Shown: positions 6,901 to 41,400 of the stretch, piece after piece
Position numbering within the stretch: the stretch's first letter is position 1
Layout: every line of letters starts with the position of its first letter
Origin: Paralichthys olivaceus
Taxonomy: Eukaryota > Chordata > Actinopteri > Pleuronectiformes > Paralichthyidae
Length of the DNA: 64,000 bases
Assembly: GCF_024713975.1 (NCBI RefSeq)
Contig: NC_091095.1
Span: 3,322,001-3,386,000 of the forward strand
Direction of reading: 5' to 3'
Translations under genes and position numbers: made by a program
The notes under the pieces: generated by a model
Databases searched by the model: none
Seen by the model: only the letters and a program-made list of their open reading frames with translations
What the model was told of the DNA's origin: nothing

Positions 6901-9371
6901 TCAGTCAAAGTCACATTAAAACACGGTTTAACTCCCTCGACAGTTTAGAATCACAAAAGAATTCCCCGTACAAGAGGCTCAGTTGTGGGTCTGATACACA
7001 CACAGGATCGTCATTAGCGTGTGTGTCCTTGCACTGAAGGTCTTTTAAGGAAAAAGCAGCTTGATTGCGACTCGGTTCTATTTTGAACCAAAGTAGTCGT
7101 TTAGATTGGAGATAACAGCCTGAGGCTGCAGCTTATCATGTGCAGCACATGCTCATTCACACAATGAGACCTTTCTCTGGCATTGTGTCCAGCTACAAAG
7201 GTTCCAGCTGAAATGAGAGATTGTTTTCATCAAACCTTATTTTGGGGATAAACACTTTGCTTTTGTCCAAACAGAACTTTTGTTTTATTTCCGCACACAT
7301 TCTGTAGAATGTAATCGTCTTCTTTTGTTTCACTGAAATTCAGTTTAATTATTTTTCACTGGATATTTTTTACTTCTTTAAATTGCTTGTGAGGTTTTAA
7401 AGGGGTCTCCGCCTTCTTTTCTTACGTTTTACCATGGTAACAATACTTTTACTTTTATCACATAGCACTTTCATCACTACAAACATGATTATCATCACAG
7501 TTTTATTACTCTGTTGTGTTTCTGCTTTTGTTTTCCGATGTTCACATCTGTAATAAAAGCTTTCAGACATACATGTGTTAGAAAAACTCCTCCTCCGGCC
7601 CGGTCTGTGTTATAAATGATCCGTAATGGCTTTGTTCAAACATGACAGGACTGTTATGAAGAGAGCCACAGTGCCCACGCGTTATTTGACATCCAGTACG
7701 TGAGAGGCGGCAGGAAAACAGGTCTGAGTGTCGTCGGTTCACTCACACGCAGAATCGAGGAGGAATTTTAAAGACAAGAACTTTGTGGAGAGTCACTTCC
7801 TCCAATCAGTGGATCCTCTGATAAAGATTCTTAATGTCATTTAGTGTGAAGAATAAACATTTGACTGTCTGTAAAAATGGACAATATACATATATATAAA
7901 TGTTTGTTAGTGGTTGGGAGGATTTCCGTTATCACACTGATGTTTGTTTTTAATTCGTTATTTGATGCTTTAAAGACGTGAGTGACAGCTCAGGCTCCTG
8001 ATTGGTCGAACGCGTGTGTCAGTGGAACCTTGACACCACGATCATGACTGAACCGACTGTAGCTGTGTCAGTCAGAGGCTGCGTTTGAAAACAACAGAAT
8101 TCGTCCCAACAGCCCGATCTATCCCAGGGTTCATCGCGCTTTAGTGACAAACAGTTTTTCAAAGAGGTGATGACACCGGCGAGCAACAAGTCGCCCGATG
8201 TGAGTTATCAGGCTTAGATTCAACTGAACAGCTAAAGCTGCACACCTTAAAAAAACCAAGGGGCATTAAAACTTTCTTATCAAGTTTAACTTCAGCTCTG
8301 TGGCAGCAGCCATAAGTCATCACGTTGTGACACACTCTGTTATCTGCTCTTCCTCCCTCCGTCAGACGGCCTGGCCGCTTTCCGTAGCTTCCTTCAGTCC
8401 GAGTTCAGTGAGGAGAACATCGAGTTCTGGATGGCCTGCGAGGACTTCAAGAAGACCAAGAACCCGGTGAAGATGGCCGCCAAGGCCAAGAAGATCTATG
8501 AAGACTTCATCCAGTCTGAGGGACCCAGAGAGGTCAGGGGCTCAAATTAATCCCATGTCGTGCAGCTCAATACGATTTCAATTTAGAATCCTCACTTTAA
8601 TCTTGACCGTTAGTCGACTACAAACTCTGAAGAGCGTGCAACACAAGGAGAGATTCCTTATTTAGAAAATTATTGATTTGAGCACAAACTGCAGCAACAA
8701 AGCAGTTTACAGCTCCTCATTGTATTTGAATCATTATCATCGAATCTGAGTCTTAACATGTAGATATTAAATACACACACCTTCAGTTATACCCCCAGTA
8801 TGTTGGAAACACAAAAGAGACTTTATCAAGAAACGTTTCCCCCCCCCCGACTGACTAAAAGTGTATTTAAAATAAAAAACGAGCCAGTGAATGATGCTTA
8901 TTCAACAGTTTCCCTTCAGAGAGAGTTAACATCTTTTATCGGTGTGCAGTGTGTAGAGGAGAAATACAGGCGTGCTTGAGTGTAAACAGATGAGGTCACA
9001 GACGGAGAATGTTCTGAGACGAACAGCACGATGACACAAAACATGAACACACATGACGTCTAAAGAGGAAACAGAGACAGTGACCTGACACCTTTTAGTT
9101 TCTATATTTCACAAAGTTAAAGAAAGTTTGAAAGTTGAGAATAATTGAGCCTTAACAATGACCGATGGATGTAAACTAAACATGGGAACTTCATTTAAAA
9201 CAGTGTGGTGTCAAAACAAGATTCTAAAACCAGTCTGAGCTAATGTGCCTGCAAAGAGAGGAACCATAAATATCATCATCACCATCATTCGACCACAGAT
9301 GATGAAGGACTTTGACACTGCAACAAGGTGTTTTGAGTGACGGCAAATAAGTGCGTTGATAAAGGTTAACG

Positions 9372-18635: not shown

Positions 18636-20842
18636 TTAGGCGCCGCCAGTTAACGTCTGCCTGTTCTCCACACAGTCACAGTTTTTCATCTCTTTATTCT
18701 GAGACAGATCCTGGATCAGCTTGGAGACGAGGAAGCGTCTGTAGGAATCTTTCTCCATCAAGACGTAGATCTTCCTCTGGGCCTCGTCGAAGCAGTTCGG
18801 GCAGGCGTTCTCCACGCCCTGCCTCGTTTCTTCTCTGGTCGCCCCGTCCAAGTTCACCTGGAGAGAACGAAGAAGACGGAGGGTAAATAAAATGGAGACG
18901 GCTTTAAGAAGAATCGAAAATAGTATTGATGCCGGGTGAATTTTGTGAAATCACAGACATAACATGCAGTTTTAATGTAGTTTCCAAGGTCTAGCAATTA
19001 TCATGTTGTTGTAATTGCAAAATACATATTGAATGACTGAAATAATCAATCTAATTTCTGAAACAGATTTAAAGTTAATTAATCAATTAATTAACTACAC
19101 ATGAAGAGCTTTAATCATGTGATGTGTATTGCTTTTATTATCTGATCTATTATTTTTACATTCTGACTGTGAGCTTCATATTGTCTGTTGTCGCTCGTAT
19201 TGAAAAGTGCTGTAGAAATAAAGTTATTATTATAATTTTTTTAATTTTTTATAAAATATATCCGGTTATATTGAAATTTCACAAAAACTGTAGATTATAG
19301 GAGGTAATGAGAGAGAGAAAATGCATATATTTATGTAAGAATACTTATATTCTTGTATATTATTAACCCTTGTTAGGCCTGTTAGTAATTAATTTTCAAA
19401 AACACAAATGATCAATAGTTTTATTAAGGTCTCTGGTGTTTTGTTCAGTTCCAGTTATAAGAAACATATGTTTATTTTAGATCTGTAGTTCTGAACACCC
19501 CAGGATTTTCTGAGAATTGATCCTTCATGTTAAAACGATAAAGGATGAAAAATGTATGAATATAAATAAACATGAATAATTTGTAAATTCAGGTGGGAAG
19601 TCTCTTTATCCATGTTTTGCATTCCCGCGACATTGATGCAATCCCAGAATGAAAACCTTTTTTAATGAGGCAGCTCAGTGAGAGGTCATTAGCGCTGCAG
19701 CATTATTCATTATATCCAAAGACTCAAGTTCCATTCACTGAAGTGGAATGTGTGAGCGCATTAATACGATTATAAAAAATGCCTTTAGAAGTGTTTGTGT
19801 GTGTGTGTGTGTGTGTGTAGTTTCAACATGACTTTAATTAGTTGTCTCTCTCTAGTTCATTCACATTCACCATGATAGAGTAATCACCTCATGAGGGGCG
19901 TCGGCCTCCACGTATTGCCGGTAGATCCGCTTGGCTCTGGTTTCCAGTTTAGACGATCCTGTCTTCTTGTATTCCTCACAGGCGAGCCAGAAATCCATGT
20001 TCTCCTCGCTGAACTCTGACCTCAGGAAGCTGCTGAAGACCCGACGACCCGCTGACGAGGGAAGAGGAGAAAAAAAAAAAATGCTTCTGTTAAGTGAGAA
20101 AGCAAATGTCTGAATCTCTTGCTCCAGACTTTTTCTACAAGCTCTCCTCCCACAGCAGGAAAATATGCAGCCGTTTCCCAGCAGGCTCGAGGACGTGTTG
20201 ATGACACAATGGAAGCTGGATGATTACAAAAATATCTCAGGATGAGAAAGAAGAGCTGCGTGTTGGGGACAATGCAGACAAAGACGTCAACTTGGAAAGA
20301 CGACGAGATCGAAGAGCAATTAGGAGATAATGGTCGATGCTGTTGTGGATGGGAACAAAGACACTGATCTTTATGTGTCATGTCTGAAAACAGAATCAGT
20401 GCCATCGCTCTGATTTAATAATGATGCATTACATTTTAGGTTTCGTGTCCCTGGATCAGAGTCGGCAGATGTGATCTCAGTGTCCTTGTTATGTTATATT
20501 ATATTATAAAGTAAACTGGATTTTATCCCAAAAAATTAGTCACAAAATCCAGCAGCGATAACTGCAACCTGTCTTTTTGGATAAGAAAAAAATGATTTTT
20601 GACAGCACACACAGATCTGAGGCTTAGTTTGAAACCCTACACGATCCCAAGAATTGATGGACGACACTTCTGAGACCACGACGAGATAAAGAGAAGATCG
20701 GAAGAACGAAGACATGACGATGTAAGAGGTCAGCGAATGAGATCATGGAACGGAGGAGGTCAGCACCCAGCATGTTCCCGCAGGGCCATTGCTCCTGTTT
20801 TGTGTCCATACACACACACAGTGTAATTCTCTGAGGGATTGT

Positions 20843-32692: not shown

Positions 32693-35600
32693 ATGAAACA
32701 CTGCGTGCTGTTGTTGCTGGTGTTGGGGTGCGCCCACGTCCGCGGCGCTCCGGTGGAGCAGGGAGGCCTGGAGCAGGGGTCGTGTGAAGACCCGGCAGCG
32801 AAGGGCGCTGCAGGACAGGCTCTCAAGAAGATCAACCAGGACCGGCAGGAGGGCTACATCTTCGCTCTGCACCGTCTGTCCAACGTGCACTTGGCAAAAC
32901 ATGTAAGACACTGACCAAACACCCGATCCTGTAATATTGTTAATTCTACATTTTCTACAGTCTTCATCCAAACCTCTGCTGACTGACCACATCTGATATC
33001 CGACATTTGAATCTATATCTGCATGTGACAAAGCAAGTTTATAAAAGCAATTTAAAACAAGAAATAAAAGTAAAGTTTAAAAATATAACAATGAAATGTA
33101 AGACCTGGGTCATTATTTGATTCAGCTAAGGCCGCGAGACACAGGAAAGACTTCAGCATTGATTTAAAGGAATAGAACTAGTACCAGTAGAAGGATGTTT
33201 GGGTAAGAAAAATTATGGAAATGATCCAGATTTTACTTTCACCAAAGCCAAGCAGCATTATTTCCTCCTCTCTAACTGAACACGTAGGACTTTTAATCCG
33301 GGACACTCTGCTGTGAAGAGTTTGTGAATAATGTTTTAGGTTCAAAATTCATTTTAATGTTGCGATAGAAGATAATCTCATTTTGGTTCATTGTTGTTTG
33401 TTGACTTCCGTGACACATTTTAGAGGAAAGAGGCTTTTCAAGGTTCAGTCAAAAGAAAAACCAACCTGGCAAAAAGATTAATGAAGCGTCTCTGAGTAGT
33501 TAACAGCAGATACGTTTAGACTGGATGATAACGGACAGTGACAACTTCGTCAGTCACATGGTTTCCTAAACAAGTTTTCTTCAACTTGTAACCGACTGTG
33601 ATTGTGTGTGTGTGTGTCACAGGGAGAAAATGGCGTTGTTTTCTACCTGACGCTGGACGTGGTGGAGACCAACTGCAGCGTTCTCAACAGGAACGTTCAG
33701 AAAATCTGTGAGGCTCGTCCCACCCACGATACACCGGTCAGAAAACACACTCACACACACTTTGTCAGACATGAACAACGCATCTACATTCATTTATCTT
33801 CATTGCATATTTCAAATATTGTGTTTGTCTCTGCAGGTGTATGGACAGTGTAAGGCTGCCATCTTCATCAATAGGGTGAACAGAGTGGTGCGTCTCTACA
33901 AATACAACTGTGCTCTCAGACCAGGTAAAAGAAACAACAACCAATAACTTTGAAATGTCTTTTAATTTAGATTTCTCTTTTCTTTTGAATTAAAACTATA
34001 ATTTCTCAGACTGAGATTCAGTGATGTAAACTCACTCCGACCTGCTTTTCTCTCTCATAAGCTCCTGCAACCAGGTTGACTGAAATCTGCCCCGACTGCC
34101 CGACTCTGACCAGCAATGACGACGCTGATATTCAGAAGGCTGTGTCCGCCTCTCTGGAGAAGTTTAACAAGGAGAGCGGACTGGCCAAGCGTTTCGCTCT
34201 GCTCAATGTCACCCGCGCTACTGTTGGGGTCAGTTCTCCAAAACACGAAGATGTCATTTTTACAAGCTGTGTCCTCCCTCTGTCTCATATAATCTGAACC
34301 ATGCAGAGAACACGGTGGCTGTGAACAACACCACTAAACCTTTGTCCAGCTCCTGACCAAGTAAATATATTGTGATGCTATTATTTGTTTTCCTTCACAA
34401 ACCTTTCTTTGGCGTGTTGCATCCAGATGGGCATGGCCACATTCTACAATGCTGAGTTCACCATCCATGAGACGACCTGCAACAAGGACACGGAGGCTGA
34501 TAAGTGCCCCATCATGGACTGCGAGTTCGCTGTGAGTCCTGACAGATTGTTTGTTGTCTCTGTATTTTTTTCTCCAACATTCTCATCACGGTCAAATTGA
34601 TCATTTCAAATTCCAGGATCTGTTGAAAGAGACATTGGACAATCCTTTAAACATTCACTCTCTGCCTCTCGTAAATATTATAAATTAAATAGCAATGTTT
34701 GAGTCTCAAACAATTGTATATTGGTCTCAACTGTCAATAGTGATGTTCCACCTTGTTTTGGCAGCATCAGAAAACCAAATAAAACCAAACGTATCGGATA
34801 CATGAACACTTGAACAAACATCGATGTGAAAAGAACTTCCCTAAAGGACATCTTTGAGAAAAAATATTTATTCAACGTGCACTTTGATTTTTGGAGTTTG
34901 GTCCATGTCCCGTCTGCTAAAATGGAGAGAGCAGGGTTTACGACTAGCCAGCCACCAGGGGGCAATCAAGATCATGTGGCGTTAGTTTTGTGCTGGTAGC
35001 TCTGCCACCAGTATATTTTCAATTCAATTAAAAAAGTGGGAAATAGCAGATAACTTTATGGATGATTTTGATTTTAAAGTTTATTATATTCTTGGAAATC
35101 CACAGTTGTCTTATTGGTTTCTCTTGTTCCGTCCTCAGCACAAGGGCTTCTGTAAGGGATCCCTGATCACCCCTCCCACTGGTGACACTGAGACCACTGT
35201 GGAGTGTGAGATCTATGAGCCTGAGGTAAGACTCTCACTGATTATTTTACATGTCACCCTGGAATTAAATGGAAATGGAAGAATTCCTCGCAGCAATGAT
35301 GACATATTATAATATTATTCTATAGAATGACCGTTGTAGAACTGAGACTTGGACTCAAGTATTTAAAAAGGTCATTGGTTCAATCCCTGGACCAGCAGGA
35401 TTAAATCTAAATTGGTTGTGTTAACGATATTGTTTCGACTCTAAGTGCCGGAACCTCTTAGTCCCAGGAGCATTTTTCAAGAAGGTAAAAGGTTCCTCCA
35501 GATTGTTGACTGTATTTCCAAAAGAGTGAAGTCTTGCGTGGAGAAGTGCTCTGGTATTAAAGCACATTCAAAATAGAGCGACAGATCTTTAAAATGGCTG

Positions 35601-36602
35601 ACATGAAATGCTGGAAGCCCCCCCTCAAAGCTTCCTGCACTTTTGGAAAGTAGAAACCAGGGGTGTAAAAACCTGATCCTCCGCAAATTAATTTAGACCC
35701 GAGAGTTCCTGGACAAAGTTACGGAAAGAAAAAAGAAGAGGAAACAAAAACCAACAAATATATGATCCAGGCTAAAATTGGAAATAAACTTAACAACATG
35801 TCTTTATGGTTTAAAACCAATATTTAAACCCAGACACTTGATGAATCCTAATTATGTGTGTTTGCAGGCTGCTGACAGAGAGAAGAAGCTCCACCTGCTG
35901 GGCGGAGAGGCTGACCACAACCACAACGACACACACGCACATGACCACGCCCATGACCACGCCCACAGCGCCGACCACTCACACACACACGACCACGAGC
36001 ATGACCACACTAAGGGCCACGCTCATCACGACAAAACCCACACACACGCTGACAACGCAGAGCACCACCACACTCACGACCACGAGGCAGGCAGCGCCCA
36101 CAAGCACGCTCACGATCACTCCCACGACCACGGGCACGGCCACGATCACGTGCATGCCCATCATGCCAAAGCACATGAACACACCGGTGACTCGCCAAAC
36201 CAACACCACGACTACAAACACACCAGTGGTGAGCACACCCACGATCATGACCACGAGCTGGCCCTGGACCACGACCACAAGCACCCTCACCTGCACGCAC
36301 ACGAGCACCACCACCATCACCACGACCACCAACATGAAAATGCACACCACGACCACCCAGAGGGCACGGTGAAGATGTTGCCCGCCATCGACCGGCCCGT
36401 GACCCTGCCTTACTTCCCTGAAGTCCCTGAGGTTGGAGTCACTCTGCCCGCAAAGCCCGATCCCCAGATCCCCGAAGAGGTGGAGCCCACAATTGTGGCG
36501 TTCCCCACCTCAAACTCCGCGCAGTGCACCGCCCCAACGGGAGAGCTCACACTGGTGGACAAACTCTTCAACGAGGACCCTCTGTTCAAGCCAGCCGCAT
36601 AA
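32693..36602 (+). CDS. fetub: Fetuin-B-like secreted cystatin-family protein with His-rich tail
   Basis: Fetuins are liver-secreted plasma glycoproteins; fetuin-B inhibits astacin-type metalloproteinases such as ovastacin. Seven exons join in frame: 32693-32902, 33623-33736, 33837-33924, 34062-34228, 34427-34531, 35139-35225 and 35868-36602, coding 501 aa. Residues 1-18 form a signal peptide (MKHCVLLLLVLGCAHVRG). Cystatin domain 1 spans about 27-137, and cystatin domain 2 about 152-257. Between them is CPDCP (147-151), the linker known to block the astacin zinc site. VYGQCKA, YNCALRP and GFCKGSL match human fetuin-B closely. NCS (Asn87) and NVT (Asn186) are possible N-glycosylation sites. Exon 7 adds a tail unlike human FETUB: 63 His in its first 163 residues, mostly alternating X-His, then a Pro-rich end. 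This recalls histidine-rich glycoprotein (HRG), so an hrg-like name is possible. A second terminal exon lies downstream at 38026. Confidence 0.85.
32903..33622 (+). other. fetub: Fetuin-B-like gene, intron 1
   Basis: Phase 0 intron with donor GTAAGA and acceptor GTCACAG. Nothing recognised inside except a short TG run before the acceptor. Confidence 0.75.
34532..35138 (+). other. fetub: Fetuin-B-like gene, intron 5
   Basis: Phase 0 intron with donor GTGAGT and acceptor CCTCAG. A family 1 repeat copy fills its middle (34735-34985). Confidence 0.75.
34735..34985 (+). repeat. Dispersed repeat family 1, copy D
   Basis: Contains AAATAAAACCAAACGTATCG, ACACTTGAACAAACATCGAT, GGTCCATGTCCCGTCTGCTA, and GCCAGCCACCAGGGGG in the family order. 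It sits in intron 5 of the fetuin-B-like gene, in the sense orientation. Confidence 0.75.
35226..35867 (+). other. fetub: Fetuin-B-like gene, intron 6
   Basis: Phase 0 intron ahead of the His-rich exon. It contains scattered GGTTCCT/GAGTTCCTGG motifs (35485-35720) that hint at an old MITE-like repeat with inverted ends, but the match is weak. If the distal exon at 38026 is used, splicing would run from 35225 past exon 7. Confidence 0.6.
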
Positions 36603-36779
36603 GTAGGAACTCAACTAGAACCTGAATGGATCTGGAAGAACTCACACAAATGCACAGACTGTTGTGAAGTAACAGGAAACTTCTTTAGTCACATCTCGGC
36701 CGTTTCCTCTCGGTCAAAGTTGGTTTGATGTAAGAACAAAACATCTAACTGCTCCTGTGTCTCTTCACTTCCACCATCT

Positions 36780-36785
36780 AATAAA
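36780..36785 (+). terminator. fetub: Polyadenylation signal after the His-rich exon
   Basis: AATAAA lies about 180 bases after the stop codon at 36600-36602. A second AATAAA is at 36940-36945. Either would end the transcript before the distal exon at 38026. Confidence 0.6.
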
Positions 36786-37220
36786 GGTTGAACACATCTA
36801 ACACAAAGGGAAATGTTACATCAACCTGTTTTATTTTCACATTTTCATCGGTCATGTCATAAAAAAATAAAAATAAACAACAGAAACTGTCGAGACCTTC
36901 AACCTTTGTTCAAACATTTTCTGTGTTTGGCAAAAAACCAATAAACTGTACTGCAAATACTCATCTGGTGTTTGATCAATGACCAGGAAATCCATTGTGT
37001 GTTGATTCAATTCACTAAATGCACAAAATCTGTTCCCCTGTGTTTCCTCTCACTGCTACTGACGTGGAACAGAACATGAAAAATAATCTTTAATCCAACA
37101 CTAACTGAAATTACACAAAGATAAAATGAGCCAAAAGTTGTTTTAAAAGACTTTTTTCTGATCATATCAATGCACAAACACTCACAGTAGCAAACAATCA
37201 ACATTGAAAACTCCATAAGA

Positions 37221-37235
37221 ACATATATATATACA

Positions 37236-37269
<34 letters not shown>

Positions 37270-37291
37270 TATATATATATATATATATATC
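37221..37291. repeat. (TA)n repeat with two ACAGT interruptions
   Basis: About 70 bases of TA interrupted twice by ACAGT, largely self-complementary, lying between the two alternative terminal exons of the fetuin-B-like gene. Confidence 0.9.
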
Positions 37292-37447
37292 GTCTGCAGT
37301 GATGCTCCACACATCAGGACTGTACGTGTCGGATCTTCATGATTTTAACAGTTAACTAATTCTTTAAATGCAGAAACTATTTACAGCATCTCCTAAGTCC
37401 CAGTTTTGTTTTATAGTTGCTTTTAAATAATATTTCGTCAAATTTCT

Positions 37448-37560
37448 TGAGCGCCCCCTGGTGGCTTGCTTCAATGTAGTTCATAAACCCTGCCTCCTCC
37501 ATGTTAACGCACAGGAGATGGACCAAGCTGCACATTAAAGATGGTTTCTGTCATTTTATG
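37448..37560 (-). repeat. Dispersed repeat family 1, copy E (reverse orientation)
   Basis: GCGCCCCCTGGTGGCTTGCT, CATAAACCCTGCCTCCTCCA and TTTCTGTCATTTTATG are the reverse complement of the family 1 3' half. Confidence 0.7.
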
Positions 37561-38025
37561 TTGTTCACTTTTCCTCTATGTTTTTAATTAGCCACAATCA
37601 CAACTTTCAGACTCCGGCTCCAAATAATGTCAAAGGCGCAAAATAATAATATAACAATAAACTTAAGTTGTTTTCGATTAGTTCAATTACTTATATTTGT
37701 ATTTAAAGTTTGTTGTTAAGTGATAAGAAGAAATGAAACCTTTGCAAAAATGACTAAAACAAAAATAACAAGTTAGTATAAATGGAGGTTTTGAACCAAA
37801 ATGAATATTATTATTATTATATTATATATTTTAGCGATGCGTTGTCTGTCTTTATATAAAGTCAAGAATACAACCAGATTCTGCAGCTCCAAGGAACTTC
37901 GATGAGTCTTAATCTCACTGTTTTTGGTTTTAAGCTTCATGTGTGGTTCAGCGTCTTATAAACATGTGTGTTTACCGAGGCTGAGCCAGCTCCTCACGGT
38001 GGCTCTTCTCTCTCCTCCTCTGCAG

Positions 38026-38280
38026 GCCGCCGCTGTGGAGGAGCAGATTCATGCACAAGCAGAAACTAAACACAACGGGCATCAGCACCACATCCACACA
38101 CACCTGAAACCCCACGAGCACGTCACAGTCACACCGAGCCCTAACGTCACTGTCTCCAAACCACGGGGCTCCCTGGGGACTGTGGTGTATAAACCTGCTG
38201 CTCCCAGATCTGCTCCGGCTGCCAGCTCCTGCCCCGGCCCACAACGGCACTATCTGAACATATTCGGTGTCAAACTCTGA
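38026..38280 (+). CDS. fetub: Distal alternative terminal exon of the fetuin-B-like gene
   Basis: A strong polypyrimidine tract and TGCAG precede GCC at 38026. From there 84 codons stay open to TGA at 38278. The phase is 0, the same as exon 7, so exon 6 (ending 35225) could splice to either. That would give a 341 aa isoform instead of 501 aa. Both terminal exons begin Ala-Ala. This exon has 9 His in a short stretch (residues 10-32 of the exon), then NVT, then a tail ending SSCPGPQRHYLNIFGVKL. CPG plus a basic, aromatic C terminus resembles the human fetuin-A (AHSG) end CPGRIRHFKV. No second set of cystatin exons lies between 36603 and 38025. It is either a true alternative last exon or the surviving end of a lost tandem copy. 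Confidence 0.6.
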   Translation, partial: AAAVEEQIHAQAETKHNGHQHHIHTHLKPHEHVTVTPSPNVTVSKPRGSLGTVVYKPAAPRSAPAASSCPGPQRHYLNIFGVKL

Positions 38281-38430
38281 CCGGCTGCACACACAGGGCC
38301 ACGTCTATTTCCTGTATGTTGTAGATAAATAAGACAAGAGATTGTAACTCAGAAGTAAAATGAAAGAAAATGTTGAGTTTTACCAACAACAATCCTTTTT
38401 ATGTAGTAATCAGGTTACATTTACTGTTTG

Positions 38431-38436
38431 ATTAAA
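38431..38436 (+). terminator. fetub: Candidate polyadenylation signal for the distal exon
   Basis: ATTAAA, a common variant signal, lies 151 bases after the TGA of the distal terminal exon. Confidence 0.4.
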
Positions 38437-41400
38437 GCATTTATAAAGCTGGAAGTCGTATTATTATTATTTCCTTCTCACGTGGGAACTGGTTCGGAAG
38501 TTGCGTCAGTTTAGTCTTTCTGTAGAAACATGTTTTCTTGAGTTTATACAAGAAAACAATATTGGTGCATCAGAAACAGCCACATCAGCGTTGAACCGTC
38601 CGTTATCAATCACCTCTTTTCATTTCCTCGGGTCGATCTCTGTAACAAAGCTGAAGACTCACTTTCTTCCTTGGCAGCCTGAGGAGACTCTTTCACAAAC
38701 GAGTAATTGAAATTGTTTTCAGGCAGCTTCCTCCAGAGACCGAGGTCAGATTGGTCCGTCGTTCTCCCCTCCACCACCGGGCAAGTCGGCCATAACGGGC
38801 TCATGAAACAGTCGCCACAAATCACAGCAGAGCTCCTGTGTTGTGGGCCTCTTGACTCAATGTGCTGCCCAACACGCTGCAGTAAACCCATCGAGAGGTA
38901 AGAGGTGTAATGAATTTTCAGTCTGATATAACAGCCCCCAACGGTTTGTCCACACACACACACACACACACACAATAGCTCCAGCACAGCGAACACTCAA
39001 ACCTGTTGCTGAGTTGTTTCATTCACACGACACCCTGACAAACCATGAGACTTCCAAGGCTTATTTAATTGTTTTAACACTGAGGATTCTGCCAATTAAT
39101 TTCCTGGACCTCAAAGGGAAGTTTTGTTTACCAACTTTTTAATTCCTATCGTTTTTTAATTATCATTTTTCCGGTTTTCACTGAACAAAAATTGGTGAAA
39201 AACAAAAACACGTGCCATCTGCAGCTGTAACTGAAGTCCTGCCTGACGTCATTTCAATGTGAGTACTGTGTTTTAGTTGCAGATCGACAGTCTTCACAAG
39301 CATTAATGTAAAAGGTTGAATGAGAAGCACTCTGTTATTCACGATGGCTCCACATGATGTCACCCTAGCTTTCATTTTCACTCTCCTGAGCTCATCCAAA
39401 TACTAAATATAAAGACAAGGAGAAATATAAGATGCAATAATTGAAAAACTCTAATTAGTTTAACGAAGACAGAAGCACAACAATCATGTTTACTTTATTG
39501 TAAGCGAAGATAAAAATACTTATAATAACAATTAATTTAACTGGTGTTGTGTTTTTAACGGAGCTCAGAGACAATTATCATGGTTATAAAACAGAGAAAG
39601 AAAACAAAAAAGCAAATAATTAATAACCAGACATAATTAGAAATCTGACAGAAAAACCTGACGCTTGCTGTGATAGACTTTCAAGAAGCTGCTGTTGTAC
39701 AGTGTGTTCATTTGCTCACAGGTTTTTTCTACACAGTCACTAGTCTGTGTGATTCAGCATCACAAAACAATGTTTTTACATTTTCTAATAAAATATTCTG
39801 TCCGGACATATCGAATACTTCCAGATCGTGTGGCTTTTAAACTCTCATTTTTAATTACATCCGCAAATGATGGTTTTAAATTAACATGCTTTTGACAAAG
39901 AGTTGTTTAACTGCAGAGCTCAATCATCAATTCACTGCTACTAGATTATATTCATGCTAATCTCCCTCTGACAGTTTCTCTGTGAGGTTAATGTTCCATG
40001 TTGTCACACAGTTATATATGATATGATATGATATTGGATACGAAGCCCATCATTTGTTCCACCGCTTTCGTCTTCTCTCCAACTCTCTGAGGAGAACTGC
40101 ATCGAGTTCTCGTGCAGTGTGTCCCACATTCTGTGAAAATCCCCATTATTAATTAAGAGGCCCTCAAGATGTGAACGACTTTGTGTGAGTGTGTGTGTGT
40201 GTGCGCGTAGACACAAAGAGAAACACACACACACACCCAGAGTCGTGTGTTAAGAGTCGTAATTCTGTGGTCGAGACAGACCCCACAGGGAGGGAGGGTC
40301 CCTGAGGTCCTGCCGACACCCTGACCTCACCCTCAAAACAAAAAGCACCAACAGAAGACGTTAGTGGTGCGTTTGGATTAAGAGACAAGGTTCAGTATGT
40401 GACAACACCAGCAGCCGCTGATAACCACTGCTAACTTAACACAAATCTGAAGGCAGAGTACTGTGAACAAAGTAGAATACACATGTTTATCATTGCTGAG
40501 GTTGGAGAACTTCACGCCACAGTATTGCAGCCATTTCCACCTCCACCGAGGAAGTTGTGTTTGAAGAAATAACGACATTTTCCCTGGACACAGTTGATGG
40601 ATCTTGACTTTGAGTTGATATCTAAGAGTGTGTGTGAAATCTGGTGCAGCTTGATTGACTTTAAAGAGATTACATTGGACCTTGGCAGGTATGAGCTCCA
40701 GCGAGTGCCTTTCCATGTTGCAGGCTGTTTTAGTGCACTAATCTCCAGGACCTGCCTCCCGTAGTGGGCATATGCTTTCAAAGCTGAAGCTCTAATCAAA
40801 AGATCACATGTATTTGAGGACCTGGCCGGGATTAAGTTGCTCTCTATCCGTTTTAAGAGCCTTAGGAGCCACGTAGGGCCCCGGAGAGCAGAACTGGCTG
40901 CAGTCAGCAATAATTCCTCATGCAGAGACGGCAGCTGGTCTCGTCTGCCTCTTTGCTGTTTTGCTGCCATGAGGGGAAGACAAGCTAGGAAATATCCTTG
41001 AACATGCTCTGTCCAGAATAAAAAGTGGGAATGCTATGAGTGTCGTGTGGGCCTCAGTGTCCACACCGAGGCTGGAGACTGTCCAGAGCTGTTCCGCTCA
41101 AACTGTTCGGCCACACATCTTTCAGAAGCAGTGGCTAGACGAGGCAGTTAATTTTTGATGACTGGTGATTGTGTGTTGTGTTTTCCATGACCTGTATAAA
41201 GCGAAGACGCTAATCGAGAGCAGGGGCTGAATAGCACGCAGCAGAATCCGGCAGCCAGATGCCAGTTTTGAACCCACGGAGAGGAGATCACATGCAGAAT
41301 CATCCTGTTATAAACCCCGGAGACACCATTAGCAGCAGCAAGCAGCAGCACTTTATATATATTTCCAAAGAGGTGGTGAGAATGTGAATTACTGCTGCCC

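Follow-up and report, generated by a model that had tools for sequence, protein, structure and literature searches.

A fetuin-B-like gene of Paralichthys olivaceus with two candidate alternative terminal exons, one His-rich and one of the canonical fetuin type

The closest precedent for the gene described here is KNG1, a type-3 cystatin relative in which a splice choice either retains the whole of exon 10, which encodes the His-rich domain 5, or adds exon 11, giving high molecular weight (HMW) or low molecular weight (LMW) kininogen, as set out in an excerpt of PMC9382879. In teleost kininogen, the HMW form is reported to be absent in the text excerpted from PMC3835742. HRG combines two cystatin-type domains at its N terminus with a region rich in His (excerpt of PMC10388577). 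Fetuin-B (FETUB) is also a type-3 cystatin, and C368 near the end of the human protein is disulfide-bonded to C36 of cystatin domain 1 in the crystal structure, as given in part of PMC6789097. Here, we analyze a 64,000-nucleotide stretch of the Paralichthys olivaceus genome (contig NC_091095.1, C3:3322001-3386000; the window) containing a fetuin-B-like gene. Judged from its sequence, this one gene probably has two alternative terminal exons. The distal one, exon 8, is best read as the standard inherited fetuin terminal exon, and the His-rich proximal one, exon 7, as an added one. The genome searched comprises 588 Mb in 25 contigs.

The features of the gene, in window coordinates, are as follows.

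32693..32902, + strand: exon 1, encoding the signal peptide and the first part of cystatin domain 1; phase 0 out
33623..33736, + strand: exon 2
33837..33924, + strand: exon 3, phase 1 out
34062..34228, + strand: exon 4, carrying the CPDCP trunk (residues 147-151)
34427..34531, + strand: exon 5
35139..35225, + strand: exon 6, the final exon common to both forms, phase 0 out, donor GAG/gtaaga
35868..36602, + strand: exon 7, candidate alternative terminal exon rich in His (63 of 244 aa), with one Cys (C477), lacking CPG..R
36369..36370, + strand: candidate internal donor of exon 7, phase 0, ACG/GTGAAG, where the His tract ends; weak
36780..36785, + strand: proximal AATAAA, with further copies at 36866, 36872 and 36940
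38026..38280, + strand: exon 8, terminal exon of the canonical fetuin type, 84 aa, C-terminal end SSCPGPQRHYLNIFGVKL
38431..38436, + strand: distal ATTAAA, which may serve exon 8 as polyadenylation signal

The first six exons (32693-35225, + strand), translated after splicing at introns that are all GT/AG, give a core of 257 aa. Pfam Cystatin (PF00031) matches this core in two stretches with 58.6 bits, indicating two tandem cystatin-like domains, and the linker trunk CPDCP expected of fetuin-B is found in it at residues 147-151. When the core is extended by exon 8, the solved structures that it matches best are fetuin-B chains (159 bits, E 1.7e-45), a match that separates fetuin-B from fetuin-A weakly because the list of solved relatives holds no fetuin-A chain. 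The coordinates, phases and lengths that the initial annotation had given for exons 6, 7 and the distal exon were exact on retranslation. Joining exon 6 to exon 7 gives a 501-aa protein of about 54 kDa with 14% His, exon 7 containing 43 HxH motifs. Joining it to exon 8 gives 341 aa, or about 35 kDa unglycosylated and with the signal peptide, assumed to be 18 residues long, removed. Each terminal exon has, as had been claimed, an AG acceptor, a frame free of internal stops and its own candidate polyadenylation signal downstream, AATAAA for exon 7 and ATTAAA for exon 8.

The standing of the two exons is best judged from the other fetuin genes. Searching with the core gave weaker matches 1.56 Mb away, at a fetuin-B-like gene on the same contig (L019), and using L019 as the query added an AHSG-like gene on the minus strand of C16 (L032) and a place at C3:1.85 Mb. 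The three fetuin genes compared here are the three that were found, further cystatin-type places on C14, C17, C9 and C18 being set aside. Against the same fetuin-B chains, L019 scores 143 bits and L032 scores 77 bits. Two of the three are fetuin-B-like, as is reported for zebrafish in an excerpt of PMC6346019. The exon lengths of L019 are 225/111/88/167/108/87, compared with 210/114/88/167/105/87 in the gene studied, and the intron phases of both L019 and L032 agree with it (the exon 5 donor of L032 is uncertain and was chosen so as to preserve frame). Each of the two has one recognised terminal exon, entered in phase 0, which ends RSCPGPARYTTV in L019 and ACPGRVRYFS in L032.

Both of these ends carry the element CPG..R, and so does exon 8. 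Among the 828 stop-to-stop open reading frames (ORFs) of at least 40 aa in the window, exon 8 is the only one with this element. The motif was picked after inspection of exon 8, and it arises in 40 of 200000 shuffles of that exon. When the last 30 residues are compared with those of L019, the score of exon 8 is reached by 5/2000 shuffles and that of exon 7 by about 1130/2000. Human fetuin-B aligns with CPGPAQ at C368, that is, with the CPGP core and without the R. As far as these sequences go, CPG..R is a general fetuin C terminus and not one specific to fetuin-A. The short form had been called fetuin-A-like, which was a mislabel, since the element also ends the fetuin-B-like L019 and the AHSG-like L032 and its CPGP core is in human fetuin-B. 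Because CPG..R terminal exons occur in L019 and L032, CPGP occurs in human fetuin-B, and exon 8 is the sole carrier in the window, exon 8 appears to be the standard end and exon 7 the extra one. A His-rich exon was not found in any frame in 10 kb around each of L019 and L032, screened as 50-aa stop-free blocks at a step of 5 for at least 10 His, with only about 1 kb covered past the L019 terminal exon.

Other features also set exon 8 apart. Its acceptor ranks first among the 4032 AGs of the + strand of the window by a home-made pyrimidine score, and the exon 6 donor that would join it is exceeded by 0.07% of the window's GTs; the weights of the splice scores were set from general knowledge and not by a trained model. 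Its codon periodicity is reached by 4/2000 shuffles, under a model for which the core of this gene itself and L019 served as training data. It encodes 10 His, mostly grouped in the first third, and one Cys (C326), within CPGP. No better match than E 0.087 to its peptide exists elsewhere in the genome, and in a search with 36603-38500 (878 candidates, 40 scored), none of the 41 matches listed covers the exon except the match to itself. An interspersed repeat lies upstream of it near 37437-37585, and through it the searched stretch matches elsewhere, with at least 39 other matches in the genome; intron 5 near 34900-34990 seems by eye to hold a stretch similar to it.

The initial annotation had offered, as its own alternative, that the distal exon is the remnant of a tandem copy. 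We regard as very improbable both this idea, in which exon 8 is the last exon of a fetuin copy stripped of its cystatin exons, and the idea that it is part of another gene. The 1.4-kb gap between exons 7 and 8 would suit either, but a second cystatin exon set was not found at the locus, where the core search gave one set and the Pfam search one place in the window. The next matches are those 1.56 Mb off at L019, on C16 and at C3:1.85 Mb, and L019 and L032 own their terminal exons. Exon 6 joins exon 8 in phase, so no upstream partner is needed, and the acceptor is the top-ranked one. The remnant alternative also loses its basis because it is exon 8 that looks canonical and exon 7 that looks additional.

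For exon 7, the acceptor ranks 198 of the same 4032, which lies within the range of the acceptors of exons 2-6 (ranks 18-483). Beyond its His tract, the 77 codons at 36369-36599 have a codon periodicity matched by 0/2000 shuffles. These codons bear on another arrangement, in which the His tract is a cassette. Splicing from 36369 to exon 8 would shorten exon 7 and make a 508-aa protein with a His-rich middle and a canonical end, the sole hypothetical form to join the two, while the full exon 7 would be a read-through or second form. Placed where the His tract ends, the donor is in phase 0 and scores 1.23, much like the gene's weaker donors (0.76 at 33737 and 1.30 at 34229), and the HMW/LMW choice in kininogen likewise uses a splice site within exon 10 (excerpt of PMC9382879). 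However, 4.2% of the window's GTs outscore this donor, and the strongly coding-like stretch past it fits a full-length exon 7, so we consider the cassette a rather unlikely arrangement. It nevertheless bears on the earlier description of the terminal exons as mutually exclusive. Two alternative ends are still the best reading, now strengthened by the paralogues, but their exclusivity is unproven because the donor at 36369 permits an exon 6-7short-8 splice.

Exon 7 was also considered as a duplicate of exon 8, and this was not borne out. With His masked, the alignment score is reached by 387/2000 shuffles; for the parts past the His tracts the count is 313/2000, and for the first 16 residues 70/2000. 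Unmasked, the two exons do look alike (local score reached by 4/500 shuffles, global by 0/500, and the DNA score by 0/300), a likeness probably driven by the His codons.

Several observations weigh against two working terminal exons on one fetuin-B-like core. The second half of exon 8 taken alone has no in-frame periodicity (score -2.0), and over its full length the exon 8 peptide shows no significant similarity to the terminal exon of L019 (about 45/500 shuffles in local and 42/500 in global alignment). An acceptor at least as good as that of exon 7, followed by a phase-0 ORF of at least 84 codons, occurs in 8 of 200 cases on the + strand, two of them being exons 7 and 8 themselves, and in 7 of 209 on the - strand; therefore, an ORF with an acceptor proves little on its own. 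Finally, 12 Cys are present in the mature core, against 11 in human fetuin-B and in L019, and a parity argument for a disulfide to the tail is therefore not clean.

Some of these observations would suit a gene in which exon 8 is a former fetuin terminal exon, silenced once the His-rich exon with its own polyadenylation signal took over, and not yet decayed. In favour of such a gene, the fetuin features of exon 8 are inherited family features, its second half lacks periodicity, and a proximal AATAAA starts 178 bases past the exon 7 stop. An exon long out of use should show erosion, but its frame and CPG..R are intact and its acceptor is the best on the + strand. We therefore take silencing to be unlikely, while giving it a little more room than the other alternatives, and we infer that exon 8 is used in transcripts.

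With two alternative terminal exons in one gene, the following scheme may be proposed. Where the proximal acceptor and a proximal AATAAA (36780 or later) are used, a secreted 501-aa form with the 244-aa His-rich tail would be made. Where exon 7 is left out, splicing would run from the strong donor of exon 6 to the strong acceptor of exon 8, and the product would be a standard short fetuin of 341 aa. The splicing and a polyadenylation-driven choice between the ends are what we infer for this gene, as are metal or surface binding, which the tail would set, and protease inhibition. The cystatin core and CPDCP trunk, and hence probably the inhibition of astacin proteases, would be common to both forms. 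Inhibition by both is expected because carp fetuin truncated to its cystatin domains alone inhibits astacin-type enzymes (excerpt of PMC6346019), and human fetuin-B minus most of its tail still does so (excerpt of PMC6789097). In the short form, a C31-C326 bond would be the counterpart of C36-C368 in human fetuin-B; since each tail has a single Cys (C326 or C477), either might close the tether to C31. The core also has a Cys, C225, in exon 5 and the second cystatin domain, to which nothing corresponds in human fetuin-B or L019. This makes the Cys count odd and leaves one Cys partnerless in both forms.

Elsewhere in the window, regulator of G protein signalling (RGS) domain exons are found at 8290-8550 (+), 18636-18950 (-) and 19867-20223 (-), probably belonging to two adjoining RGS genes. 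The match at C3:1.85 Mb is a kininogen-like locus (C3:1847500-1857499, minus strand) with cystatin matches and the peptide RRRPTGWSPLR, which we take to be a fish-type bradykinin. Its 10 kb gave no His-rich block on the coding strand in the same 50-aa, 10-His screen; the only blocks there lie on the + strand and are translated CA repeats. C3 carries the kininogen-like gene (1.85 Mb) and the two fetuin-B-like genes (3.35 and 4.92 Mb) within about 3.1 Mb, with the AHSG-like gene on C16. The grouping on C3 recalls the cluster on human chromosome 3 described in an excerpt of PMC10388577.

If both forms are made, RNA processing alone would give a plasma protease inhibitor a large metal- or surface-binding tail, and a long and a short fetuin would be directly comparable. 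The HMW/LMW kininogen switch would then also have originated twice in a single protein family, here in fish that are reported in the excerpt of PMC3835742 to be without HMW kininogen. Annotators should take care to include the distal exon, since the canonical fetuin end is in it. No account of a fish fetuin with alternative C termini was recognised among the matches listed from the open-licence literature (titles and abstract openings); public annotation lay outside this scope and may already list the isoforms.

Among the known systems, fetuin-B shares with this gene the two cystatin domains, the CPDCP trunk and, through exon 8, a C-terminal CPGP with the putative tether Cys. What sets this gene apart from it is another terminal exon, whose tail has 63 His and no CPG element, together with the extra core Cys C225. 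HRG resembles the long form here in its two cystatin-type domains and His-rich region, but the long form has no CPG end unless the donor at 36369 is used. In genomic architecture, KNG1 with its long His-rich and short forms is most like the candidate pair. Here, there are two cystatin domains rather than three, and the split falls mainly past exon 6, whereas in KNG1 it falls within exon 10. KNG1 has bradykinin before its split, while no RPxGxSP-type motif was seen by eye in the 501- and 341-aa translations; in this genome the motif occurs at the separate kininogen-like locus on C3. It is conceivable, if somewhat short of an even chance in our estimation, that a teleost fetuin-B gene independently gained the kininogen type of two-tail switch in a lineage without the long form of kininogen.

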